Shown piece by piece: positions 3 to 11,995 of a DNA stretch of 30,430 nt. Both the position numbers and the translations under genes were made by a program. This stretch comes from a virus. The DNA is taken from the IMG/VR virus record IMGVR_UViG_3300044995_000299, positions 1 to 30,430 of that record; one strand, given 5' to 3'. The notes beneath the pieces are model-generated. The model saw only the letters and a program-made list of their open reading frames with translations, did not search any database and was not told where the DNA came from. Position 1 is the first letter of the stretch. Every line of letters begins with the position of its first letter.

Positions 3-152
3 ATCACGACCACCGGCTCGCAGGGATTGCGGGCCACCTGCGCTGTCACCAACTTTAGCCGCAACGAGCCGCTGGAAGAGGCGATCACTGTCAGCGTGAC
101 CGTCAAGCCAACGTACTCGGCGAACCCGCCGGAGTGGATGACTGTTGCCTGA
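3..152 (+). CDS. Phage tail-tube-like protein, C-terminal end (5' truncated)
   Basis: An open frame enters from the left edge and stops with TGA at 150-152, giving about 49 C-terminal residues. The visible part contains 'NFSRNEPLEEAITVSVTVKP' followed by a YSANPPEW stretch. This resembles the C-terminal strand of phage tail tube (major tail) proteins, which end in an alternating V-x-V-x-V strand and a 'PPEW' tail; this is pattern recognition, not a search. The location fits, since a tail assembly chaperone and tape measure follow in the usual siphovirus order. The start and most of the protein lie outside the window, so the family call is tentative. Confidence 0.6.
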   Translation: MTTTGSQGLRATCAVTNFSRNEPLEEAITVSVTVKPTYSANPPEWMTVA

Positions 153-169
153 TTCCCCAAGGAGTACCC

Positions 170-1174
170 ATGCGTTTGTTGTTCGCTCTCGCTCTGCTCG
201 CTCTGGTTCCGCTCACCGCCGGCGCGGAGCCGATCCGCATCGCCGGTGAGACAAAGTACAAGCCGCACTCACTGGTTCGGCTCCGTGCCGAGGGTGTCGA
301 TCCGAAGGCCGCGATCCTCTGGCGCGTTCATCCGGCGAAGGACGTGCAGCGCGCGACCACGCCCCGAGGGGTGCTGGAGTTCGCGGCGCATCCCGGCACC
401 TACGAGATCGAGTTGCTGGTGATCCGGCAGACCGACGACGGGCTGATCGTCGAGGAGAGCCAGGTCACGGTCACCATCGAGGGGTGCGGCCAGGCGCCGC
501 CCCAGCCCGAGCCGAAGCCACCGGGGAAGGCCAACGCCGAGCAAGCCATCGGCAAACTCCGCTTTGGTAATGCCGGTTGCACCGCGACCGTGATCGGCCC
601 GAGACGCAGCGACGGGAAGTGGGACATCCTCACCGCGGCACACTGCACCGGCGGGGTCGGCAGTCGAGGGACGTTCACCCTCAAGGACGGTCGCACACTC
701 GCGGTCACCGTCGCGGCGCGGAACGCCGACGCGGACCTCACTTGGCTCGTGACCGACGCAGCGGTGGACGATCTGCCGGTCGCCAACCTCGCCGCGAAGA
801 ACCCGCCGGTCGGCACCGAGATTTGGCACATGGGCTACGGGATCGACAAACCCGGCAACCGCGAGGATGGGCGCGTGACCGGAACGGAAACGCGCGACGG
901 GCAGTTGCCGATGGAACTGAGCGTCTCCTCCGGCGACTCGGGCGGGGGCATCTTCCGCGCCGACACCAACGAGCTGATCGCGGTGGTCTGCTGCACCACG
1001 GAGCGTGGTCGCAAGGTACTGATGTTCGGCGGCAGCGCCGAGCGGGCAGCGCGGCTGCGGCCGGTGGTGAAGACCGACATCGACACGTGGGAACCGCTCG
1101 CGATTCCCATCTGCATCGTCAAGAAGACCGATGCCGATTGGCAACCCATCGACATTCCCGTCCGGCAAAAGTGA
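170..1174 (+). CDS. Exported trypsin-like serine protease inside the phage tail module
   Basis: This 334-residue protein begins at ATG 170 behind an AAGGAG ribosome site; an in-frame GTG at 134 is rejected because the signal peptide starts at 170. Residues 1-19 form a hydrophobic signal peptide ending in 'LTAGA'. Residues 20-105 look like a beta-sandwich (Ig/PKD-like) domain, followed by a Pro/Lys linker near 107-122. The catalytic domain starts near 130, with His158 in 'LTAAHC', an Asp at 187 or 189 in 'NADADL', and Ser257 in 'SSGDSGGG', which together make a plausible complete triad. It should cleave peptide bonds outside the cytoplasm or in the virion. It sits 17 bp after the tail-tube-like gene and 35 bp before the next ORF. 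Possible roles are processing of tail proteins or digestion of host surface proteins during entry; the role is inference, while the protease family is secure. Confidence 0.85.
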   Translation: MRLLFALALLALVPLTAGAEPIRIAGETKYKPHSLVRLRAEGVDPKAAILWRVHPAKDVQRATTPRGVLEFAAHPGTYEIELLVIRQTDDGLIVEESQVTVTIEGCGQAPPQPEPKPPGKANAEQAIGKLRFGNAGCTATVIGPRRSDGKWDILTAAHCTGGVGSRGTFTLKDGRTLAVTVAARNADADLTWLVTDAAVDDLPVANLAAKNPPVGTEIWHMGYGIDKPGNREDGRVTGTETRDGQLPMELSVSSGDSGGGIFRADTNELIAVVCCTTERGRKVLMFGGSAERAARLRPVVKTDIDTWEPLAIPICIVKKTDADWQPIDIPVRQK

Positions 1175-1209: not shown

Positions 1210-1419
1210 ATGTGGGGCTTCTTCCAACCGAAGCGGACAGTGTTGTCGGTCATCCAAGAGCTTGTGGAGGGCGTCGAGCAGGGGACGGTCGCTCTGCCGT
1301 GCCCGGAAGAGGAACTGTCCGCTACCGATGACGCACCCGATGCGGATGATGGCGAGGTGCGGCGCGTGTTCGAGTTCCTGAGTGTGCCCATTCCGACTGA
1401 GGGGATGAAGGATGCATAG
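1210..1419 (+). CDS. Small acidic tail-module protein of unknown function
   Basis: A 69-residue ORF begins at ATG 1210 behind an AAGGGG ribosome site and ends 8 bp inside the next gene, which suggests translational coupling. The N-terminus 'MWGFFQPKRTVLSVIQ' precedes a helix-prone stretch, and residues 34-52 are rich in Asp and Glu ('PEEELSATDDAPDADDGE'). I do not recognise a family. Its position just before the tail assembly chaperone, in a compact run of late phage genes, makes a minor tail or chaperone-associated role possible. The longer open frame running upstream is a shadow of the protease gene. Confidence 0.6.
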   Translation: MWGFFQPKRTVLSVIQELVEGVEQGTVALPCPEEELSATDDAPDADDGEVRRVFEFLSVPIPTEGMKDA

Positions 1420-1909
1420 CTTCCGCGACAACGTCGGGCGAGTCTGGACCGTCACCATCAACGTGGCCGCGGTCAAGCGTGTCCGCGGGCTCGTCGGCGT
1501 CGATCTATACAAGCTCGTGGACGATGGCTTCAAGCCGCTCGCGGCGCTGGTCTCCGACCCGGTGCAACTGGCCGACGTCCTCTTCTGCCTGTGCAAGGAC
1601 GAGGCCGACGCCAAGCAGGTCACCGACGAGGACTTCGGGCGGGCGCTGGCCGGCGACGCGATCCTCCTGGCGGCCGAGGCGTTCGTGGAGGAACTCATCG
1701 ATTTTTTCCCCGACGCCCGGACGCGGGCCAGCTTCCGCAAGCTGAACGCGACCGGGAAGGAGGTCAAGGCGCGCCTGCTGGATCACGCGGAGACGGTCCT
1801 CGACGAGATCGATCCAGAGGAGGAAGCGAGCAAGTTGATCGCCTCGTTTGGGAACTCGCCGGAATCCTCGGCCTCGACCCCGGCCCCTTCACCCTCCGCG
1901 AACTCGTGA
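1412..1909 (+). CDS. Phage tail assembly chaperone, zero-frame product (gpG-like)
   Basis: A 165-residue protein begins at ATG 1412, overlapping the previous stop by 8 bp. It is largely helical and acidic, with 'DLYKLVDDGFKPLAAL' and 'LADVLFCLCKDEADAKQVT' and then 'DFGRALAGDAILLAAEAFVEE'. This matches the pattern of proteins found between tail tube and tape measure genes that chaperone the tape measure during tail assembly. The last 18 residues are a Ser/Pro/Ala-rich low-complexity tail ending at TGA 1907-1909. That tail overlaps a -1 frame encoding a much more protein-like sequence, so the chaperone may be made in short and long forms like lambda gpG/gpGT. The family call rests on position and composition. 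Confidence 0.65.
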   Translation: MHSFRDNVGRVWTVTINVAAVKRVRGLVGVDLYKLVDDGFKPLAALVSDPVQLADVLFCLCKDEADAKQVTDEDFGRALAGDAILLAAEAFVEELIDFFPDARTRASFRKLNATGKEVKARLLDHAETVLDEIDPEEEASKLIASFGNSPESSASTPAPSPSANS

Positions 1910-2115: not shown

Positions 2116-2655
2116 ATGGCAACGGCGGGAATGTGTCGGCGGTGTAAGCAGCGGCCGGCATCTGACGGCAGAACCAAGTGTGCGCCGTGTCTGGCCAATG
2201 CCATTCGCCAGCAACAAGCCGTCCGCGAACGGGCCAAGCGGAATCGGCTCTGCATCCGGTGCTACCAGAAATTACCCGATGAATCAGTGCGCGTAACTTG
2301 CCCGACCTGCGTGGCGAAACACAAGCGGACTCATCAGCGATGGGCGAGGCGGCTCAAGCAGGAGGTTCTCGCTCGGTACGGCGGCGCGAAATGCGTTTGC
2401 TGTGGGGAGACTGGCATTGCGTTCCTGTCGATTGACCATGTTCACGGTGATGGTGCTGAGCATCGCCGGGAACTCGGATTCTCGGGGTCCAACTTTTACC
2501 GCTGGCTCAAGCAGCAAGGCTTCCCGCCGGGTTACCAGGTCTTGTGCATGAGTTGCAACTGGGCCAAACGGCGCGGGGGCTGCTGCCCGCATCAGCTGGT
2601 CCCCGAAAGGGCCGGGGAAATCCAGGAACTCGTAGGGACGGATTGGGTGATTTAG
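2116..2655 (+). CDS. HNH-type endonuclease with zinc-binding Cys pairs
   Basis: A 179-residue basic protein begins at ATG 2116, three bases after the preceding stop. Two treble-clef-like Cys sets come first (Cys7, Cys10, Cys22, Cys25, then Cys46, Cys49, Cys62, Cys65). The C-terminal nuclease-like domain has 'CVCC' at 93-96, 'LSIDHVHGDG' at 104-113 with Asp107-His108 as the expected catalytic pair, and 'QVLCMSCNWAKRRGGCCPH' near 141-159 supplying the C-x2-C-N element. This is the HNH (His-Me finger) arrangement: divalent metal, double-stranded DNA cleavage. Its place between chaperone and tape measure genes, which are usually adjacent, suggests a free-standing homing endonuclease. Target and activity are unknown. 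Confidence 0.75.
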   Translation: MATAGMCRRCKQRPASDGRTKCAPCLANAIRQQQAVRERAKRNRLCIRCYQKLPDESVRVTCPTCVAKHKRTHQRWARRLKQEVLARYGGAKCVCCGETGIAFLSIDHVHGDGAEHRRELGFSGSNFYRWLKQQGFPPGYQVLCMSCNWAKRRGGCCPHQLVPERAGEIQELVGTDWVI

Positions 2656-2680: not shown

Positions 2681-4303
2681 ATGGCCGGCGTTCAAGCAGT
2701 CCGGGCGGGCGCGGCCTACGTTGAATTGTACGTCCGCGACAACCGGCTGGTCGCGGGCTTGAACGCCGCCGTCAGGCGGCTCAAGGCGTTCGGCGCGAGC
2801 ATCGCCGGGATCGGCGCACGCCTGGGAGCGGTTGGCGCACTCGTCACCGCGCCGCTGCTCGGCTTCGTCCGGACGTTCGCTTCGGTGGGCGACGCGCTGG
2901 ACAAGGCCGCCGCCCGCACCGGACTGTCGGTCGAGGCGCTCTCGGAGCTGGGCTTCGCCGCCGAGCAGTCCGGGGCCGACCTGGAGACGCTGGAAGTGGG
3001 CATCAGGAGCATGCAGCGGGCCATCGCCTCCGGGCTGGCCGGTCCCGGACTGGCCGGGATGACCCCCGAGGAACAGTTCCTCACGCTTGCCGAGCGGATC
3101 AGCCGCGTCGAAGACCCGACCCAGCGGGCGGCCCTGGCGATGCAGGTCTTCGGGAAATCGGGGCAGCGGCTGATTCCGCTGTTGGCGAGCGGGGCGAAGG
3201 GGATCGCGGCTCTGCGGCGGGAAGCCCGCGCGCTGGGGCTCTCGATCAGCACCGAGCAGGCCAAAGACGCCGCCGCGTTCACCGATGCCTGGAACCGACT
3301 CACCCGCACGATCAAGGCGGCGGTATTCGCCCTCGGCGGGGCGCTGGCCCCGACGATCACCGACCTGCTGGGCCAGCTCATGCCGGCGGCCGTCTCGGTG
3401 GGGCAGTGGGCGCGGCAGAACAGCCGGCTGGTCATCACCATCGCCGCGGTCGCCGCCGGGGTGGTCGCGGCGGGGATCGCGATCATCGGCCTCGGCGCAG
3501 TGCTATCGGCGGCAGGCACGATCCTCGGCACCGTGACGGCCGCGATCAGCCTTGCGGGGACCGTGCTGGGCGCGCTCCTCAGTCCGGTCGGGCTGGTGGT
3601 CGCGGCGATTGTGGGTCTGGGCATCGCCTGGCTGACCATGAGCGACCGCGGCAAGCAAGCAACGGCGGCGGTGCGGGAAGCGCTCCGCGGCATGGCCGTG
3701 GAATTCGGCGAGGTCTGGTCGGGGATCGTTGCGGCGGTGCAGGCGGGCGACCTCGAACTGGCGCTGGAGATCGTCGCCGCTTCGATGCGGCGAATCTGGG
3801 CGGGCGCGATCCTCGCCATTCGCGAGGGCTGGAACGAGCTGATTCGAGGAATCGTCAAGTCGCTGAAAGACAACCCGTGGATCCTGCCCCTGGCCGGCGG
3901 GGTGGCCGGCTGGACGGTGGGCGGCCCGTGGGGCGCAGCGGCCGGCGTCGCGGGCGGCATCGGACTGACGATCTTCGCCGACGACATCGCCGAGGCGCTG
4001 ACGGTCGAGGTGAGCGACGCAGCCGCGAAACTGCGGGCGGCGAAGGACGATCTCACCCGACTGATCAACCGCAGCCGGGGCTTGCCGCCGCGAACGGTCC
4101 CTCTGCTGACATCGCACTACCCGACACCGGAAGAACTGCGGGCGTCGCTGACCGGGGCACGCGGGGCCTTCGCAACGCCCTTCGCCGCCGGGCAGTTGGG
4201 CCTGGACGACCGGATCAAGCGGCAGGAAGAGCTGCTCGACGACCTGGTCGGCGAGGTCAAGCAGATCAAGGACATTGTCCGCGGCGGCCTCATGTTCCAG
4301 TGA
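2681..4303 (+). CDS. Phage tail tape measure protein (short form)
   Basis: A 540-residue protein begins at ATG 2681 behind an AAGGGG ribosome site. Features typical of tape measures are visible: an N-terminal Ala/Gly/Leu-rich helical region, a segment around residues 67-190 with 'AARTGLSVEALSELGFAAEQ' and 'AALAMQVFGKSGQRLIPLL' (the pattern of the conserved TP901 tape-measure core), and long hydrophobic segments from about 245 to 325 that could act at the host membrane. The C-terminus is a short charged helix ending in 'GLMFQ'. The protein would set tail length and leave the tail during DNA injection. At 540 residues it implies a short tail if all of it is in the measuring rod. It follows the tail chaperone, separated only by the HNH gene. 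Confidence 0.8.
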   Translation: MAGVQAVRAGAAYVELYVRDNRLVAGLNAAVRRLKAFGASIAGIGARLGAVGALVTAPLLGFVRTFASVGDALDKAAARTGLSVEALSELGFAAEQSGADLETLEVGIRSMQRAIASGLAGPGLAGMTPEEQFLTLAERISRVEDPTQRAALAMQVFGKSGQRLIPLLASGAKGIAALRREARALGLSISTEQAKDAAAFTDAWNRLTRTIKAAVFALGGALAPTITDLLGQLMPAAVSVGQWARQNSRLVITIAAVAAGVVAAGIAIIGLGAVLSAAGTILGTVTAAISLAGTVLGALLSPVGLVVAAIVGLGIAWLTMSDRGKQATAAVREALRGMAVEFGEVWSGIVAAVQAGDLELALEIVAASMRRIWAGAILAIREGWNELIRGIVKSLKDNPWILPLAGGVAGWTVGGPWGAAAGVAGGIGLTIFADDIAEALTVEVSDAAAKLRAAKDDLTRLINRSRGLPPRTVPLLTSHYPTPEELRASLTGARGAFATPFAAGQLGLDDRIKRQEELLDDLVGEVKQIKDIVRGGLMFQ

Positions 4304-4307
4304 GGAT

Positions 4308-4468
4308 TTCACCGCGGAGGACGCGGAGAACGCGGAGAGAAGAGAAGTTTGACAGGATTAACAGGATGAACACGATGAAGTCCGATCCTGTCGCATCCTG
4401 TGATCCTGTCTGAACTCTGCTCTCTGTCTTCTGATTCTCTCTGCGTCCTCCGCGTTCTCTGCGGTGAA
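4308..4468 (+). repeat. Nested inverted-repeat element filling the gap after the tape measure gene
   Basis: The outer arms are 4308-4344, built on 'CACCGCGGAGGACGCGGAG' and its variants, and 4433-4468, with the near reverse complement 'CGTCCTCCGCGTTCTCTGCG'. Inside are a second pair: 4350-4367 'TGACAGGATTAACAGGAT' and 4384-4410 with repeated 'GATCCTGTC/GCATCCTGT'. The transcript could fold into a long, purine/pyrimidine-segregated hairpin. Both motif types resemble non-coding dispersed repeats I associate with intergenic regions of many environmental bacteria, so this looks like a REP/MITE-style insertion. It starts 5 bp after the tape measure stop and ends 6 bp before the next start codon. 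Confidence 0.75.
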
Positions 4469-4474
4469 TCATTC

Positions 4475-5563
4475 ATGCCCATTGAAATCACCGAGCGCAA
4501 CATCTCGCGGGAGGTCCGCTACGGCACGACCGGCGGCTCGGAGGTGCAGCTCTTCACCGCGACCGGCTCCAGCGACCAGGTCGCGGTCTACGCGGCGGTC
4601 GTGGCCGGCACGCCCGCCGTCTGGGACGGATTCGTCCGCCGCGAAATCCGCCTGCGCCCGGTCGGCGACGACGACCACTGGGACGTGGAGGTCGAGTACG
4701 GCTCAGTCGGGCAGGACGGCACACTCGACCCCGTCGGCACCGACCCCTCGACCCCCTCGGGGCCGTCATCGGCCCTCGAGCCGCTCCGAGGTGGGTACTC
4801 GTTCGACCTGACCGCCGACACGATCCACGTCACGCAGTCGCGCCGGACGATCGGCCGCGTCCAGGCGGGCGGGCCGGTCGGCGGAGGAGCGACGCTCGCG
4901 GTCGTCGGCGCGGCGAACACTGTCAACCCGGCACCGTTCACGGTCGAAGCGGAGCACTTCGGGCAAACAGTCTGGATCATCGGCGGGCCGGCGGCGTGGG
5001 CGCTGGGCGGCTACGTCATCACCGGTGTCGATGTGGTGAATAACCTCTGGACCCTCGACCGCCCGCCCGCTGCGGTCGGTTCGATCAACGGCGTCTGGAC
5101 GATGCTCCCGCAGGGTCCGGACTATCGCGGCGCGATTGGCGTCTCCGACGACCGGATCGAGGGATGCGACATCTTCGGCCCGCGCTTCGAGTGGAGCCGG
5201 ACGGTGTCGCTGCCGGTGGTGACGCGGGCCTACCTGATGACGCTGCGAAACCTGACCGGTCGGAAGAATGCCGCCGCGTTCTACGGTGCCCGGCCCGGCG
5301 AGGTGCTCTACCTGGGCGCGACCGGGAACTACTCGCAGGGGGAGCGGTGGTCGGTGACGCACAAGTTCTCGGAGATCGCCAACCAGTCCAACGTCGAGAT
5401 CCGCCCCGGGCTGGTGGTGCCGTACAAGCGGGGCTGGGACTACCTCTGGGTGCGCTACACGCCGGAGGTCGTGGACGGACAGATCCTGCACCGGGCCGCG
5501 GCGGCCTACGTCGAGGACGTGATCCCCGACGGCGATTTCGCGCTCATCGGCATCGGGGCGTGA
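4475..5563 (+). CDS. Tail-module structural protein of unknown family
   Basis: A 362-residue protein. The start is set at ATG 4475 ('MPIEITERNISREVRYGTT') because upstream in-frame codons lie in the inverted repeat. No ribosome site precedes it; the repeat ends at 4468. The sequence is rich in predicted beta strands, including 'GGSEVQLFTATGSSDQVAVY', a middle section with two 'VGGGATLAVVG'-type glycine turns, and a C-terminal part with 'YLMTLRNLTGRKNAAAFYGA' and 'GEVLYLGATGNYSQGERWSV'. Position directly after the tape measure is where distal tail or baseplate-type proteins are encoded. I do not recognise a named family. The next gene begins after one intervening base, so they are probably co-translated. 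Confidence 0.7.
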   Translation: MPIEITERNISREVRYGTTGGSEVQLFTATGSSDQVAVYAAVVAGTPAVWDGFVRREIRLRPVGDDDHWDVEVEYGSVGQDGTLDPVGTDPSTPSGPSSALEPLRGGYSFDLTADTIHVTQSRRTIGRVQAGGPVGGGATLAVVGAANTVNPAPFTVEAEHFGQTVWIIGGPAAWALGGYVITGVDVVNNLWTLDRPPAAVGSINGVWTMLPQGPDYRGAIGVSDDRIEGCDIFGPRFEWSRTVSLPVVTRAYLMTLRNLTGRKNAAAFYGARPGEVLYLGATGNYSQGERWSVTHKFSEIANQSNVEIRPGLVVPYKRGWDYLWVRYTPEVVDGQILHRAAAAYVEDVIPDGDFALIGIGA

Positions 5564-5564
5564 C

Positions 5565-6245
5565 ATGGACCCACTCCGACCGGTGCGGCCCGGCGACCCG
5601 GCCGGCCGCGTGCTGCGGGCCGACACGTTCAACGCGCTCCTGGACGCGGCGGCACTCGTTCGCGGGTTGCGCGGGGCCGATGTGGGCTCGCCGCCGGTCG
5701 GCCTGCTCGACGTCAAGCCGCACAACACGGTCTGGGTCCGCGCCCACGCCGCTCTGCCGATCGGTGCGGTCGTCCGGATCGTCGGTGCGGCGGCGTGGAA
5801 CCCGGCGCTCGATCCGGTGACCGCGTCCCGCCGGCCGGCATTCGACACGGCGAGTCCGGCGAAAGGTGAGCCGTTCGTGATCCTCCAGGAACCGGCCGCC
5901 GACGCCGATGTGCTGGCGCGGGCGGCGGTCTCCGGCGCGGCGCTGGTCCGGCTGCGAGTCGCGGACGAACTCTACGACTTTGCGGACGTGGAGCCGGGCG
6001 ACACCGCGGCGCTCAAGAGCGTGCCGCACGGCGCGGCGCGGGTGCTGTGGGTCGAGGAGACCGGCTCGGCCGAGCGCTGGGCCGTGGTGCGGCTGGACGA
6101 TGGCGACTTCCAGGCGCACGTGCTCATCACCGGCAACGTGCCCGACGCCGACGGATACTACCCCGGCGAGGTCCAGCGCTACGACGTGGCGACGAAGACG
6201 TGGCAGACGCTCTTCGCGTGCAAGGTGGTGGACATCAACCAGTGA
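5565..6245 (+). CDS. Tail-module protein of unknown function
   Basis: A 226-residue protein begins at ATG 5565, one base after the preceding stop. The N-terminal 45 residues are helical and include 'GRVLRADTFNALLDAAALVR', which looks like a coiled or trimerising segment. The remainder is beta-rich ('GAVVRIVGAAAW', 'AALVRLRVADELYDFADVEP', 'ERWAVVRLDDGDFQAHVLIT'). The end 'VQRYDVATKTWQTLFACKVV' resembles the repeated strands of phage attachment proteins. No known domain is recognised. The gene is fused by a GTGA overlap to the Ser/Gly-rich fibre-like gene, so it is probably part of the same tail-tip complex (inference). Confidence 0.65.
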   Translation: MDPLRPVRPGDPAGRVLRADTFNALLDAAALVRGLRGADVGSPPVGLLDVKPHNTVWVRAHAALPIGAVVRIVGAAAWNPALDPVTASRRPAFDTASPAKGEPFVILQEPAADADVLARAAVSGAALVRLRVADELYDFADVEPGDTAALKSVPHGAARVLWVEETGSAERWAVVRLDDGDFQAHVLITGNVPDADGYYPGEVQRYDVATKTWQTLFACKVVDINQ

Positions 6246-7372
6246 TTCACGAGCAGCGATACCTGGCGCGCTTCGTGGGCCGGACCGGCGACACGCCGCT
6301 GTTCGCGCTCGGCTGCCCCGGCTCCGGTTCGGGGCCAGCCGCGTTCCAGTCGTCCGTGCCGCGGGTGCTGGCCCGGTTCCTGGGGCTGACCGAGGGCGTC
6401 CCGCTCTACGGCTACTCCACCTGCGAGTTCCCGCGCATCGGCCGCTACCTGATGCGCTTCGTCGGCATGACGGCGGACGACGTGCCGGTGTACGCGCTGG
6501 GCTGCTGCCCGGAGTCGTCGAGCGGCTCCTCCGGGGAGAGCGGGTCATCGGGCGAAAGCTCGGGCTTCAGCGGCTCCTCGGGGGAAAGCGGATCGTCGGG
6601 CGAAAGCTCCGGGTTCAGCGGGTCGTCCGGGGAGAGTTCCGGCTTCAGTGGCTCGTCGGGCGAAAGCTCGGGGCTGAGCGGTCCCTCAGGTGACAGCTCC
6701 GGTTTCAGCGGCTCGTCAGGCCCATCGGGACAATCCGGCTCGTCGGGAGAGAGTTCCGGCCCGAGCGGGTCGTCGGGCGAGGGCTCCAGCTCTTCCGAGG
6801 CCAGCTCGGGCAGCAGCGGGTCGTCGGGCCTTTCCGGTTCTTCGGGAGCGAGTTCCGGCCCGAGCGGGTCGGTGAGTGGTTCCGGGTCCGCCTCGGGTTC
6901 CGCCAGCGCAGGCACGAGCGGGGCCAGCGGCTCGTCGGGGGAGAGCGGATCGGGATCGGCAGCGGGCAGCGACGCGGGGAGCGGCTCGGCTTCCGGTTCA
7001 CAGCCCGGCTCCGCGTCCGGCCCGCCCAGCGGGAGCGGCTCCGCCTCCAGCGGTGCGCCGGGATCGGGCTCCGCCTCGGGAAGCAGCCCGCCGGCGAGCA
7101 GCGGTGTCGGCTCGCCGGCCAGTTCCGGCGTCGGTGCGTCCGGCGCGGGATCGTCCGGTGCGGCCAGCGGCTCCGCGCCCGGCTCCGTGCCCAACTCGGG
7201 ACCGGGCAGCGTTCCCGTGCCGGAGGGGTCGGGAGCGGGCAGTTCCGGGTCGTCGGGCTCTGGGTCGGGGAGCGGCGACGGCTCCGACTCCGGCGACGGC
7301 GGCTCGTCCGGCCCCGGGTCGGACGCGGGCCAGGCCAGCGGCAGCCTCTTTTACCGAGAAGACATCGTGTAG
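6242..7372 (+). CDS. Ser/Gly-rich fibre-like protein with triplicated N-terminal motif
   Basis: A 376-residue protein initiates at GTG 6242, overlapping the previous TGA (GTGA). Residues 6-25, 41-61 and 68-88 are three copies of a motif of the form R-x-L-x-R-F-x-G-x-T-x(3-4)-P-x-[FY], each followed by a Cys. From about residue 91 to 365 the protein is almost only Ser and Gly with scattered Glu, Phe, Pro, Ala and Asp. Its 10-residue period 'GSSGESSGFS' is clearest at 95-170. The last nine residues, 'SLFYREDIV', return to normal composition. It is probably an extended, flexible fibre or spike linker. The dense Ser content makes it an obvious substrate for the glycosyltransferase encoded next. 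No other family is recognised. Confidence 0.75.
   Translation: MIHEQRYLARFVGRTGDTPLFALGCPGSGSGPAAFQSSVPRVLARFLGLTEGVPLYGYSTCEFPRIGRYLMRFVGMTADDVPVYALGCCPESSSGSSGESGSSGESSGFSGSSGESGSSGESSGFSGSSGESSGFSGSSGESSGLSGPSGDSSGFSGSSGPSGQSGSSGESSGPSGSSGEGSSSSEASSGSSGSSGLSGSSGASSGPSGSVSGSGSASGSASAGTSGASGSSGESGSGSAAGSDAGSGSASGSQPGSASGPPSGSGSASSGAPGSGSASGSSPPASSGVGSPASSGVGASGAGSSGAASGSAPGSVPNSGPGSVPVPEGSGAGSSGSSGSGSGSGDGSDSGDGGSSGPGSDAGQASGSLFYREDIV
6512..7342 (+). repeat. Imperfect tandem coding repeat for the Ser/Gly tract
   Basis: This in-frame low-complexity tract has units of about 30 nt (10 codons), most regular between roughly 6520 and 6780. They encode variants of 'GSSGESSGFS', and two early units are extended to 48 nt. 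Third-position differences among units show they are not recent exact copies. Downstream the period fades into irregular Ser/Gly/Ala/Pro codons. Such tracts change length by slippage and recombination, so strain-to-strain variation in fibre length is expected (inference). The tract also creates long false open frames on the opposite strand. Confidence 0.8.
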
Positions 7373-7392
7373 CGCGTTCCTTGGGGGTCGTG

Positions 7393-8733
7393 ATGAGTGC
7401 CACGCTGCTTGACGAGAAGGCCATCGACTGGACCAGCTGCGCGTCGGCCGCGCCGGAGTTGTCGGTCGAGCAGATGATCCGGCTGATCGCGCACGCCCCG
7501 CCCGGCCCGTGGCCCAACGGCTGGGCGTCGTGGGCCAATGTGAACGAAGCCCATCGCGTCATGGCCAGGCGGTTCGCTCAGACGCTGCGGACGCCGCGCC
7601 TCAGCTACCCGCAAGAGCGCGGGATCGTCATCGCCGGCGGCGGGCTGAAATACTTCCCGAGCGTCTGGGTCGGCGTCAACCTGATCCGCCACTTCGGCTG
7701 CACGCTGCCGATCCAGCTCTGGCACCTCGGCACCGGCGAGATCGACCCCTACCTGCACCGGCTCCTCAAGCCGCTCGGCGTCGAGTGCGTCGACGCCCGC
7801 GAGGTCGAGAAGGAGCACCCGTGCCGGATTCTGTGCGGCTGGGAGTTGAAGCCGTTCTCGACGTTGCATTCGCCGTTCGCGGAGGTCCTATTCCTCGACG
7901 CCGACTGCGGGCCGTGCCGCGACGTGACCGAAGTCTTCGCCTGGCCGGAGTACCTCGACAAGGGCGCGATCTTCTGGCCCGACTACGCCTGCTGGCAGCT
8001 CAAGCGCGACGTGTGGGAGATCTTCGACATCCCGGAGGTCGCGGCCCGCTGGCAGCAGGAGACGGCGTTCGAGAGCGGCCAGTACCTGATCGACAAGAGA
8101 CGCTGCTGGCGCGAACTCCGCATGGCGCTGTGGTACGCGGAGCATTCCGACTTCGTGTTCCGGGTCGTCTACGGCGACAAGGAGTGCTTCCACCTGGGCT
8201 GGCGCAAGCTCGGCAGCGACTACGCCATGCCCACCAAGGCCCCCGGCTGGAACCAGCACACCATCGTCCAGTGGGACTTCCGCGGGCAGCAGATGTTCAA
8301 CCACCGCTGCCAGGACAAGTGGAAGCTCGGCGGCGGTAATAAACGCAACGACTCCCTCGCCAACGAGGAGCTGTGCTTCAACCTCGTGGCCGACCTCCGC
8401 AAGCGCTGGGACGGCGTCCTCTGGCACAACCCCGACCCGCTTCCCGAAGAACAGCGAGTCATCGACGAACTGACCGGCCGGCGCTTCCTCTACCGCCGCG
8501 TCGGGCACGACGAACGACCGATGCGTCTAGAACGGGCGGCGAAGGTGGGCGAGGGCGCGGCCGAGTGCGAGCGTCGCTGGGATGTGAACATCGACGACGG
8601 TCACGCGATCCTGACGCTCAGCCGACTGGACCGGCCAACGTGTCACCTGCAGCGCACCGGCGACGGTTCGTGGTACGGGCAGTGGCTCGAACATGAGCGG
8701 ATGCCAGTCGAGTTCATCCCCCTGGAGGCCTGA
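7393..8733 (+). CDS. DXD-motif glycosyltransferase of the phage tail cassette
   Basis: A 446-residue protein. ATG 7393 is chosen because it has a GGGGG ribosome-like site a few bases upstream; GTG 7390 or TTG 7381 are possible alternatives. Residues 77-84 'GIVIAGGG' begin a nucleotide-sugar-binding fold. 'EVLFLDADCGPCRD' holds the DXD metal/sugar-nucleotide motif at 169-171. A later 'QYLIDKRRCW' and 'GDKECFHLGWR' follow the layout of the MNN1/alpha-mannosyltransferase-like family (Mannosyl_trans3). It has no signal peptide and no membrane segment, so it acts in the cytoplasm on a soluble acceptor. The gene lies 20 bp after the Ser/Gly-rich fibre gene and 2 bp before the FkbM gene. Fold class is well supported; donor, acceptor and family subdivision are inferred. 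Confidence 0.75.
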   Translation: MSATLLDEKAIDWTSCASAAPELSVEQMIRLIAHAPPGPWPNGWASWANVNEAHRVMARRFAQTLRTPRLSYPQERGIVIAGGGLKYFPSVWVGVNLIRHFGCTLPIQLWHLGTGEIDPYLHRLLKPLGVECVDAREVEKEHPCRILCGWELKPFSTLHSPFAEVLFLDADCGPCRDVTEVFAWPEYLDKGAIFWPDYACWQLKRDVWEIFDIPEVAARWQQETAFESGQYLIDKRRCWRELRMALWYAEHSDFVFRVVYGDKECFHLGWRKLGSDYAMPTKAPGWNQHTIVQWDFRGQQMFNHRCQDKWKLGGGNKRNDSLANEELCFNLVADLRKRWDGVLWHNPDPLPEEQRVIDELTGRRFLYRRVGHDERPMRLERAAKVGEGAAECERRWDVNIDDGHAILTLSRLDRPTCHLQRTGDGSWYGQWLEHERMPVEFIPLEA

Positions 8734-8735
8734 CC

Positions 8736-9566
8736 ATGCCGCTACCGCCTCACGTTCTGTCCAACCGCGCCGAACTCGAAGAAGTCAGTCGCAAGAGGGC
8801 CGCCAGCGTTTACTACGGCGAGAACCGCTTGCTCGCGCGGCTCTTGGGCGACTACCTCGCGTTCGTCGATGCGCGCGACCTGATGCTCGGCCCGCGGCTG
8901 GTGCTGGATGGGTTTTGGGAGTCGTGGGTGACGCTCGCCATCGCCCGGCACCTGCGCCCCGGCATGTGGTGCGTCGATGTCGGCGCGAACTACGGCTACT
9001 ACACGCTGCTCGTGGCCGCCGCGTGTGGCCACGAGGGGCGCGTCGTGGCTTGCGAACCAAATCCGCTCCTCGCCGAGACGTACCTGCCGCAGAACCTGGC
9101 GCTGAACGGCTTCTACCACGGCGTCGAGATCTGCCCCAAAGTGGTCGGCAACATCGATGACCGCACGGTAGATTTCGTCCTGCACGACGGCGACTTCGCC
9201 ACCTCGTCGTTGGAGCGCTGGGCCTACGCGCACCGCTGCGGCACGGTGCAGGCACCGGCGATCACACTTGACCGGCTCTGCGCGGACTGGCCACGTCTCG
9301 ATTTGGTGAAGATCGACGCCGAGGGCGCGGAGGCGCTGGTCTGGGACGGGATGCAGGAAACGCTGCGCCGCTTCCCGCATGCCGCAGTCGTCCTCGAACT
9401 GCACCTCCAGCGCGACCCACCGCATTCGGTCGGTCTGCTGCACGAGATCGAACGCGCGGGCTACCAACTTCGGTGCGTCAACTACGAGGGCGAGGTCGTC
9501 CCGGCCGATGCCAACACGATCCTTGCGCAGCCGGAGGAGCACTGGACCCTCTGGTTGGGCAAGTGA
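8736..9566 (+). CDS. FkbM-family SAM-dependent methyltransferase
   Basis: A 276-residue protein begins at ATG 8736, two bases after the glycosyltransferase stop. SAM-binding motif I is 'CVDVGANYGYYTLLVAA' at 79-95 and the acidic ribose-binding residue is Glu107 in 'VVACEPNP'. The family-typical 'DLVKIDAEGAEALVWDG' lies at 189-205. The C-terminal strand 'AVVLELHLQ' and end 'HWTLWLGK' complete the FkbM pattern. Members O-methylate sugars or natural products. Coupled to the glycosyltransferase after the fibre gene, it may methylate the added glycan (inference). It is the last gene of the tail run: 257 bp without a convincing gene follow. Confidence 0.85.
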   Translation: MPLPPHVLSNRAELEEVSRKRAASVYYGENRLLARLLGDYLAFVDARDLMLGPRLVLDGFWESWVTLAIARHLRPGMWCVDVGANYGYYTLLVAAACGHEGRVVACEPNPLLAETYLPQNLALNGFYHGVEICPKVVGNIDDRTVDFVLHDGDFATSSLERWAYAHRCGTVQAPAITLDRLCADWPRLDLVKIDAEGAEALVWDGMQETLRRFPHAAVVLELHLQRDPPHSVGLLHEIERAGYQLRCVNYEGEVVPADANTILAQPEEHWTLWLGK

Positions 9567-9823
9567 ACGTGGGAATGAGGCCGATCAGCGGCTGAGTTCG
9601 TTGCGGTGCCAACAGCTGCACCGTATTGCCCACCACGATGCGCCGCGGCGCTCACACCTCGTCTTCGCTTGGCATTCGCCGGCCCGGGCGCGCTGCCCCA
9701 ACTCGCGGCCGTCGGTAGATTGTTTCCATGTCCGCCCTTGTGGTGCGGGTCGGGATCGGCTCCCGCGTCGATCAGTCGGGTCGATCCATCGGCGAAACTT
9801 CTGGACCTCTTCGGGAATAGCCT

Positions 9824-11995
9824 GTGCCCCCGCTGCCGGATTACATCGTCGCCATCTTCTGGCTCCTTTCAAACGCCCTACTGGGGGCAGCAGGATGGGT
9901 AACCGCGGCACGATTGTTTCCCAGAGATGCGATCCTGACCAGGATCGGGCACACCATCGGGTTCGGCTGGGCCTGCATCGTGTTGGTCAGTACCATCCTC
10001 GGGGCGACGGGCTTGCTTTGGCCGGCGGCGCTCATGGCCGGCGTCGCCAGCACGGCAGTGCTGATCCTAGTCCTGGTGATCCGGCGAGTGCCTGCGCCCG
10101 CCGCTGCGGATTGCGACCAGACTGACTCACATCCCGCCGCCGCACCGCCATCCCGGGTGACGCGGTGGCTCTGGGCCACCGTCTGGGCTGTCCTGTTCGC
10201 GTTCTGGGCGGGTCACGTGGTTACCGCCGGACTCCTCCGATTCCCCGATGATTTTGACACTCTGATGTACCACCTGCCGCTGGTGGACCACTGGCTCCAG
10301 GCCCGTAGTCTGTACGCCCCCGACGGTCTCCGGTGGAGCGACCCCGGGAACAACGAGTTGATTACGCTGTGGCTGGTTGCCCCCTTCTCAGGTGATTTCC
10401 TCTATGCGCTGACCAACCTGCCCGTCGCCGTACTCCTGGCCTGTGCCTCCGTCGAACTCGGCCGACAGCTCGGCCTGTCCGCATCGTTTCGGCACCTGGC
10501 CGGGCTGGCGGTGGTGACGAACTTCGTGGTCTTCAAGCAGCTAGTCGACACCGAGAACGACGTGGCCGTGGCCGCCCTCTTCCTGGCGTGCCTCGCCTAC
10601 GCACTGCGCTACGCCGATCGGCACCGCACCGCGGACCTGATCTTCGGAGTCGCTTGCTTGGGGCTGCTGGCCGGGGTCAAGTACTACGCCCTCGGCTACG
10701 CCGCCGTCGCGGTTGCGGTCGCGGTTCCCCTAATCGCTTCCCGCATGGGGTGGCGTGATGCGTTGCGGGCTAGCGGTTACGGCATCGTCGGGTTGTTCCT
10801 GTTCGGAGGCTACTGGTACCTGCGGAATTGGATTGGTGGGGGGAGCCCCTTGCATCCACTCGGGCGGGCGGTCGCGCCCGACGAGTTCGACGGGTTCTAT
10901 CCCGACGTGTGGCAAACCACATTTGTCGGCAACGGTCGCCCGGAACTTCTACCACTCGCGGTCAATGCCATCCGTTCCCTCGCGGGGCCAGTCCATCTCC
11001 TTGCGGTGGCCGCCATCCCGCTAACAAGCCTCTGGCTTGTGATTAGCTGTTACTGTCGATTCCGCCGCGGATCGCTGGTGAGTTATCGTGGGGGGCGACG
11101 CGCACTTGTCGCGGCCACGGTCGGCGCGGGCCTCATCCTCGCCGTCACGCCATTCGCAGTGGAGGATACCCCAGGGACATTGAACCAGATGCACTGGAAG
11201 TACTGCCCGGTCCGTTACGGGATGTGCTTCCTAAGCTTAGCGGTTCTCGCCTTGATTGTCGTCCTCGATGACATTTCGCGATTGGTCCAGGCAGTCGGAG
11301 CAGGACTGGTACGGTCCGTGTCGCACCGGGGCGCTGATCGCGAGGAGGAATCGGAACGTGCCGAAGTGGTGGCCGGTTGCCTGTTCGGTGCGGTTGTCCC
11401 GGTGGCGCTTGTGGCCGGACTTGCGGTCCAGTTCGTCGAGCACGTGCGGGCCGTCAAACTTGAGTGGGTAGACTCGCTGTTGATCGCGGCGAATCTCCTG
11501 CTCATCGGCTTCAACCTTTCGCTCCTCGCGAGTCATCGCGGGCGTTATCGCTGGGTGCTCGTGTCGGTGGTAGGTCTGATTTGTGCTCTCGGCGCGGCGT
11601 TCGGGGTCGAACACCTCAGTCAGCGGTGGCACAAGGGGTTCGTCCCATTCTATGACCGGATGTTGGGCGGGGGAGTGTTCGAGTACACTGCTCGGAATAT
11701 CCCACCGGGTACGACCATCTGCGTTCTGGACCACAGGCCATACCCGTTCTACGGGTCCGCCCGGCAGTTCCGGGTCTGTCAGCCCGTGTCGATGCGCACG
11801 TCGTACCCGTCCTGGGAGCAGTACCTGCGCGAGCGGCAGGTAAGGGTGCTCGCGGCACGTTTCGACATGGGACTGGATTGGCGCGGGTGGAAGAACGCCG
11901 GAGTTTGGACCGTCGATCGGCCGGATGTTTTTGTCCCGATCGATGGCCACCATTGGCCCTACAACGTCTACCGGCTGAATTGGAACGGCAAGTGA
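9824..11995 (+). CDS. Polytopic membrane glycosyltransferase, GT39/ArnT-like
   Basis: A 723-residue membrane protein starting at GTG 9824; the ribosome site is weak, and a slightly later start cannot be excluded. It has around a dozen hydrophobic segments. After the second or third lies an acidic periplasmic loop with 'FPDDFDTLMYHLPLVDHW' (142-157), the Asp-rich first-loop signature seen in GT-C glycosyltransferases (PMT/ArnT/GT39). These use polyprenyl-phosphate sugars and act at the outer face of the inner membrane. The C-terminal about 120 residues form a soluble domain ('NIPPGTTICVLDHRPYPFYG', 'MRTSYPSWEQYL'), also usual for the class. It is separated from the phage cassette by 257 bp and probably belongs to the envelope block. 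Confidence 0.7.
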   Translation: MPPLPDYIVAIFWLLSNALLGAAGWVTAARLFPRDAILTRIGHTIGFGWACIVLVSTILGATGLLWPAALMAGVASTAVLILVLVIRRVPAPAAADCDQTDSHPAAAPPSRVTRWLWATVWAVLFAFWAGHVVTAGLLRFPDDFDTLMYHLPLVDHWLQARSLYAPDGLRWSDPGNNELITLWLVAPFSGDFLYALTNLPVAVLLACASVELGRQLGLSASFRHLAGLAVVTNFVVFKQLVDTENDVAVAALFLACLAYALRYADRHRTADLIFGVACLGLLAGVKYYALGYAAVAVAVAVPLIASRMGWRDALRASGYGIVGLFLFGGYWYLRNWIGGGSPLHPLGRAVAPDEFDGFYPDVWQTTFVGNGRPELLPLAVNAIRSLAGPVHLLAVAAIPLTSLWLVISCYCRFRRGSLVSYRGGRRALVAATVGAGLILAVTPFAVEDTPGTLNQMHWKYCPVRYGMCFLSLAVLALIVVLDDISRLVQAVGAGLVRSVSHRGADREEESERAEVVAGCLFGAVVPVALVAGLAVQFVEHVRAVKLEWVDSLLIAANLLLIGFNLSLLASHRGRYRWVLVSVVGLICALGAAFGVEHLSQRWHKGFVPFYDRMLGGGVFEYTARNIPPGTTICVLDHRPYPFYGSARQFRVCQPVSMRTSYPSWEQYLRERQVRVLAARFDMGLDWRGWKNAGVWTVDRPDVFVPIDGHHWPYNVYRLNWNGK

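Follow-up and report, generated by a model that had tools for sequence, protein, structure and literature searches.

A Ser/Gly-Rich Tail Protein Encoded with a Glycosyltransferase and an FkbM-Type Methyltransferase: A Putative Tail-Glycosylation Cassette of Planctomycete Phages

The Tail Operon and Its Last Three Genes

The window, i.e., the whole stretch of DNA analyzed here, spans 30,430 bases and corresponds to an entire IMG/VR record. A single rightward operon fills its first 9.6 kb, in the order protease, g2, g3, tape-measure-like gene, g5, g6, SG (Ser/Gly-rich) protein, glycosyltransferase (GT), and FkbM (Table 1). The operon belongs to a phage, because in the relative L206 this operon is preceded by portal and head/protease genes. 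These genes and the tape-measure matches agree with the first-pass annotation, which had placed the last three genes at the end of a phage tail operon; its coordinates and gene content for the three were borne out. Neither the SG protein nor the products of g5 and g6 matched a PHROG or Pfam family, and a structure model of g6 was dropped (mean pLDDT 54). The SG gene lies distal to the tape-measure gene, the position of a phage tail fiber gene, and its product is a putative fiber.

Table 1. Features of the tail operon in the window.
Feature	Coordinates	Strand	Evidence or remark
Trypsin-like protease gene, late operon	134..1174	+	PF13365, E 4e-14
g2, conserved small tail-operon protein	1412..1909	+	41–82% identity in relatives
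g3, putative Zn-ribbon-like protein	2116..2655	+	Weak PHROG/Pfam matches only
Tape-measure-like protein	2681..4303	+	Matches to several tape-measure PHROGs, best E 4.5e-30
g5, conserved tail protein, anchor of the comparative set	4400..5563	+	No named family
g6, tail protein	5565..6245	+	Alignment; Ser tract fused to g6 in sister phages
SG protein, complete, 376 aa, no C-terminal tip domain	6242..7372	+	
SG protein, N-terminal domain	6242..6511	+	Three conserved-Cys repeats of ~25 residues each
Ser/Gly tract, putative glycan acceptor and stalk	6458..7363	+	302 aa
GT71-type glycosyltransferase	7381..8733	+	PF11051, E 1e-27; possible alternative ATG start at 7393
DAD (DXD) motif of the GT, residues 173–175	7897..7905	+	Invariant in 26 relatives
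FkbM-type methyltransferase	8736..9566	+	PF05050, E 1.3e-16; PHROG 8156, E 9e-25

Translation of the SG protein starts at GTG 6242, in a 4 bp overlap with the g6 stop, and ends at 7372. The Ser/Gly tract covers residues ~73–374 (39% Ser, 28% Gly), close to the length of about 275 residues initially annotated. Its Ser residues are encoded by 77 TCN and 42 AGY codons, and the two alternative frames give Ala/Arg/Pro or Arg/Gly/Leu. Because both Ser codon families are used and Ser/Gly appears in one frame only, the tract is kept as protein and not as a DNA repeat. The protein begins with MIHEQRYLARF and ends with ASGSLFYREDIV; read by eye, it contains neither a hydrophobic signal nor an LPXTG motif. 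The N-terminal repeat domain (~90 aa), with 34–84% identity across 21 relatives and invariant C25, C61, and C88, is probably the tail anchor.

Among relatives, the SG protein varies both in the length of its tract and in a C-terminal addition. A domain of ~130 aa closes many of them (L025:8615-9013, L040, L041, L002) and is absent from the window copy; it has no Pfam match and is a candidate receptor-binding tip. A similar-looking domain forms a stand-alone protein, without tract or GT, at L267:13020-13637. At L371:3228-4781, and also in L359, L365, and L368, a Hint (intein/hedgehog-like) domain splits two Ser/Gly stretches, with a Hint_2 match (E 5e-4) below the cut-off; such interrupted proteins are possibly self-cleaving stalks. 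Many contigs of the lineage stop within the tract. Both ends of the 36-kb contig IMGVR_UViG_3300014796_000030 (L010 and L071) fall inside an SG tract gene, as expected if the genome is circular and assembly broke it at the tract repeat; the contig has no exact terminal overlap. Another phage contig with an SG cassette encodes a 1,143-aa collagen-like (GPQGPQGEPG) protein (L012:2-3430).

The GT gene follows the SG gene by 8 bp if translation starts at TTG 7381, or by 20 bp from ATG 7393, as first annotated. Its product belongs to PF11051 (Mannosyl_trans3), scoring 97.5 bits against a curated cut-off of 22. The motifs DAD, YGDKECFHL, and HRCQDKW are invariant, consistent with the initial assignment as a DXD glycosyltransferase. 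The predicted structure (pLDDT 88) has a GT-A fold and was matched by Foldseek to yeast MNT2 (E 2.8e-11), which was also the best solved match (Z 20.4, 289 residues, 3.6 Å). Its additional C-terminal domain of ~100 residues is duplicated in L010, L026, L027, and L039. The FkbM gene starts 2 bp past the GT gene, the spacing noted at first pass, and its PF05050 score of 61.7 bits (cut-off 22.7) places the product in this family. Both enzymes are under purifying selection, with dN/dS values of 0.12–0.26 for the GT against near relatives and 0.14–0.22 for FkbM.

Other phages have the GT in fusion with a second domain, GT-A-like or GT2, and encode a further FkbM-type enzyme in place of FkbM or alongside it. 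Two candidates were rejected: a sulfotransferase-like segment suspected by eye in the fused GT of L027 and L039, for which Pfam gave no family, and FkbM relatives in one Streptomyces and one Rhodococcus phage, considered as a model, which do not lie beside tail genes.

Association of the Ser Tract with Glycosyltransferases

Scans with the GT identified 38 viral and 14 genome loci, the latter nearly all planctomycete. An SG tract gene precedes the GT in every relative with intact upstream sequence, usually within a few bases; in the Pirellula type, one small gene sits between the two. Apparent lack of the SG gene was traced to contig ends or decayed loci, and the L170 contig stops before the gene upstream of the GT. 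The g6–SG–GT order is kept and the 4 bp g6/SG overlap is found in nearly all relatives, with identities in syntenic loci dropping to 21% (g6) and 56% (GT). The intervening gene of the Pirellula-type phages (L046:8454-9002, with equivalents in L015 and L020) encodes a small Cys-rich protein that has no Pfam family.

In the decaying loci L112/L276, SG and GT were lost together and FkbM remains. Here (contig IMGVR_UViG_3300043543_000720), a minus-strand DUF1559-like gene takes the place of the SG protein and the GT; L048, L052, and L053 are further members of this natural decay series. FkbM had been counted as part of the cassette from the beginning. Its coupling proved looser, and the methylation predicted for it fits a glycan but is optional: FkbM persists in the degraded L276, and in many phages a different FkbM-type enzyme or other enzymes for trimming take its place.

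To avoid selecting for the answer, we anchored the comparison on g5, a tail gene upstream of the cassette, which is present in 42 of 392 sampled genomes from one phylum (that of the L042 genome). Some planctomycete genomes hold many copies of the tail system, with nine g5 copies in G356 and five in G376. Viral contigs and planctomycete genomes yielded 116 distinct loci that were not degraded and extended far enough downstream. A Ser tract counted as long when windows of at least 40% Ser covered 80 aa or more, and GTs were scored within the first ~4.6 kb. A GT was present in 51 of the 54 tract-bearing loci and absent in 3, whereas 56 of the 62 loci without a tract had none and 6 had one; the set includes loci first found via the GT, so the tract-bearing share is not a natural frequency. 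Loci found only via g5 or g2 gave the same pattern. The local GT profiles were built mostly from tract-bearing loci. A Pfam scan of 63 proteins from tract-less loci found no GT, and a scan of 101 proteins from such loci found one (L391) among the 25 families listed.

The exceptions run in both directions. L359, L365, and L368 have a tract and no clear GT, carrying methyltransferases or a weak MptE-like match, and in L391, L351, and L382 a GT occurs but no long tract. An intact homologous locus with both enzymes and no Ser-rich protein, which would speak against the pairing, was not found, leaving aside L170, loci in decay, and the three loci L250, L252, and L254, where a divergent GT71–methyltransferase fusion is accompanied by no more than a short stretch of Ser. 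The Fisher value for the association (3.7e-22) is descriptive only, because supported phylogenetically independent pairs are too few: 2–4 pairs were usable, nearly all in the same direction, with p of 0.125–0.5 and none significant. Directly after g6, L351 encodes on the minus strand a GT2-like protein with a TubC docking domain (L351:5023-7404; E 1e-9).

Cassette Types and Module Exchange

The enzymes beside the tract represent GT71, GT4, GT2, GT25, GT8, and GT32, together with LicD, polysaccharide pyruvyl transferase, and FkbM. In the GT71 type, which may also have FkbM and a second GT, the tract is interspersed with Gly and forms a separate protein. In the GT4+GT2 type, a tract of Ser runs is fused to g6, and LicD, pyruvyl-transferase, or FkbM domains follow. 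GT25, GT8, or GT32 adjoin other tracts. The chemistry of the tracts does not overlap between the GT71 and GT4 types: the former are GSSG-like, with a median S:G of 1.58 and a mean Ser run of 1.53, and the latter SSSG-like, with values of 3.95 and 2.78, respectively. Throughout this uncultured lineage, the pairing of tract and GT persists although the enzyme families are unrelated, which suggests, at the level of sequence, that these phages carry sugar-coated tail appendages.

The types are interleaved on the g5 tree. L003 and L040 (GT71) are sister to L185 and L275 (GT4) with support of 100/94, and the window groups with L246 and L247, its closest relatives by tail, both of which lack tract and GT (100/98). 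The starred branches alone demand at least five label changes for GT71 and at least four for GT4/GT2. This interleaving fits an exchange of modules, one that has taken place between almost identical tails.

Proposed Function and Known Systems

In our view, this planctomycete phage locus is a cassette for tail glycosylation, in which the tract is glycosylated, the glycan is O-methylated, and the modules are exchangeable; the probability of this reading is about 0.7. The SG protein would be translated along with the tail proteins and attach by its N-terminal repeat domain beside g6, near the tail tip, with the Ser/Gly tract forming an extended stalk. In the cytoplasm, ahead of assembly, the GT71-type enzyme would draw on a nucleotide sugar of the host, by analogy GDP-mannose, and add sugars to Ser residues of the tract or lengthen sugars already present. 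The FkbM enzyme would then O-methylate the glycan, a step that may be frequent but optional. Related phages would swap the entire acceptor-plus-enzyme module for unrelated ones, such as GT4+GT2 with Ser-run tracts or GT25, GT8, or GT32, with added LicD, pyruvyl-transferase, or other methyltransferase domains. The glycan would therefore vary by exchange and the glycosylated Ser-rich appendage would be retained. Any benefit is a matter of speculation and could lie in adsorption, protease resistance, or stealth.

The simplest reading of these sequence data is that the adjacent enzymes use the tract as their acceptor, and the first-pass proposal to this effect gains support from them. We regard it as unlikely that the enzymes modify the host surface, in lysogenic conversion or superinfection exclusion, and that the Ser/Gly protein is merely a neighbor. 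Phage-borne GTs often change host polysaccharide, and the LicD, pyruvyl-transferase, and GT2 domains of sister loci are also present in cell-surface pathways; this explanation is nevertheless disfavored because the enzymes lie within the late tail operon a few bases past the tract gene, with no separate transcription unit. They also come and go with the tract, whose type tracks that of the GT, and neither a membrane domain nor a flippase partner was seen in the cassette.

S/G linkers are common, and S/G tracts also act as plain linkers. The tract could accordingly be a flexible or spacer stalk only, with another virion protein (capsid, tail tube, or g6) as the glycosylated one, as described for capsid and tail tube of mycobacteriophages (PMC12363180). 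We judge this improbable: a capsid acceptor would leave unexplained why the GT is missing from nearly all tract-less g5-anchored sisters, and it is disfavored because the enzymes are linked to the tract and not to the capsid or the lineage. Least probable of all is that tract and enzymes co-travel as one linked block by shared ancestry, with no enzyme–acceptor relation; all loci belong to one tail lineage and the independent pairs are too few for significance, but non-homologous GT families recur with differing carriers (separate, g6-fused, or another separate protein) and the tree forces repeated label changes.

Returning to the tail-glycosylation reading, protein glycosylation of phage particles is, to our knowledge, known from few phages; virion glycosylation of mycobacteriophages was reportedly described by Freeman et al. 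in 2023. Mycobacteriophages (Che8, Corndog, Myrna) glycosylate capsid and tail tube proteins by their own GTs (PMC12363180, PMC11256854), and Corndog has GTs and an O-methyltransferase among its structural genes (PMC4351075). The present locus likewise holds phage GT and methyltransferase genes within or next to structural genes, and would likewise glycosylate a virion protein. The presumed acceptor, however, is a dedicated Ser-rich tail-end protein and not capsid or tail tube, and the cassette lies at the end of the tail operon, whereas in Corndog the corresponding genes are located between the portal and protease genes. A further difference is that the window GT had no tblastn match at E 1e-3 in 50,697 phage records.

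In streptococcal Ser-rich repeat adhesins, a Ser-rich stalk is encoded beside the GTs that decorate it. Staphylococcal Ser-Asp repeat (SDR) proteins are similarly encoded beside their decorating GTs, SdgA and SdgB (PMC3794999). As in these glycoproteins, a long Ser-rich low-complexity tract adjoins GT genes in the window; the likeness to SdgA/SdgB is one of gene arrangement. The adhesins are secreted cell-wall proteins with a signal peptide and LPXTG, whereas the phage SG protein has neither. No accessory Sec export gene was among the Pfam matches of the window.

MNT2 and MNN1 act in the fungal Golgi, where they lengthen chains of mannan. The phage GT shares with these yeast α-1,3-mannosyltransferases (GT71) the fold, the Pfam family, and the DXD motif; unlike them, it is soluble and has the extra C-terminal domain. 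A starter enzyme might be needed, because MNT2 extends existing O-mannans and does not start them.

Virion glycosylation and pairs of Ser-rich proteins and GTs are already known; an uncultured lineage that combines the two in its tails would be a new variation. No cultured members of the lineage were found in the phage collection, and none of the papers searched deals with tail-protein glycosylation in planctomycete phages. A broader proposition, to which we give even odds, is that a widespread, uncultured lineage of planctomycete phages has mucin-like tail appendages, with Ser-rich stalks that are matched in sequence chemistry to exchangeable, non-homologous glycosylation cassettes and a glycan coat swapped by module exchange as receptor-binding tips are. 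If true, tail glycosylation would be a general, testable strategy, given the spread of the lineage and the unrelated enzyme families; the cassettes would offer enzyme–acceptor pairs for glycoprotein production in bacteria and would explain long unannotated Ser-rich phage proteins.

Beyond the operon, attachment ends were sought: no tRNA was found, and no 13-mer is common to 9561-10700 and the window beyond 11.5 kb. The segment 9824-22448 encodes a membrane protein, a DUF1559 pilin-like protein, and two GT2 proteins, one of them with a methyltransferase domain, followed by a large serine recombinase. Host DNA, cargo, and a second element are candidates for this segment; the GC content of the window falls to 58–59% at 12–15 kb.
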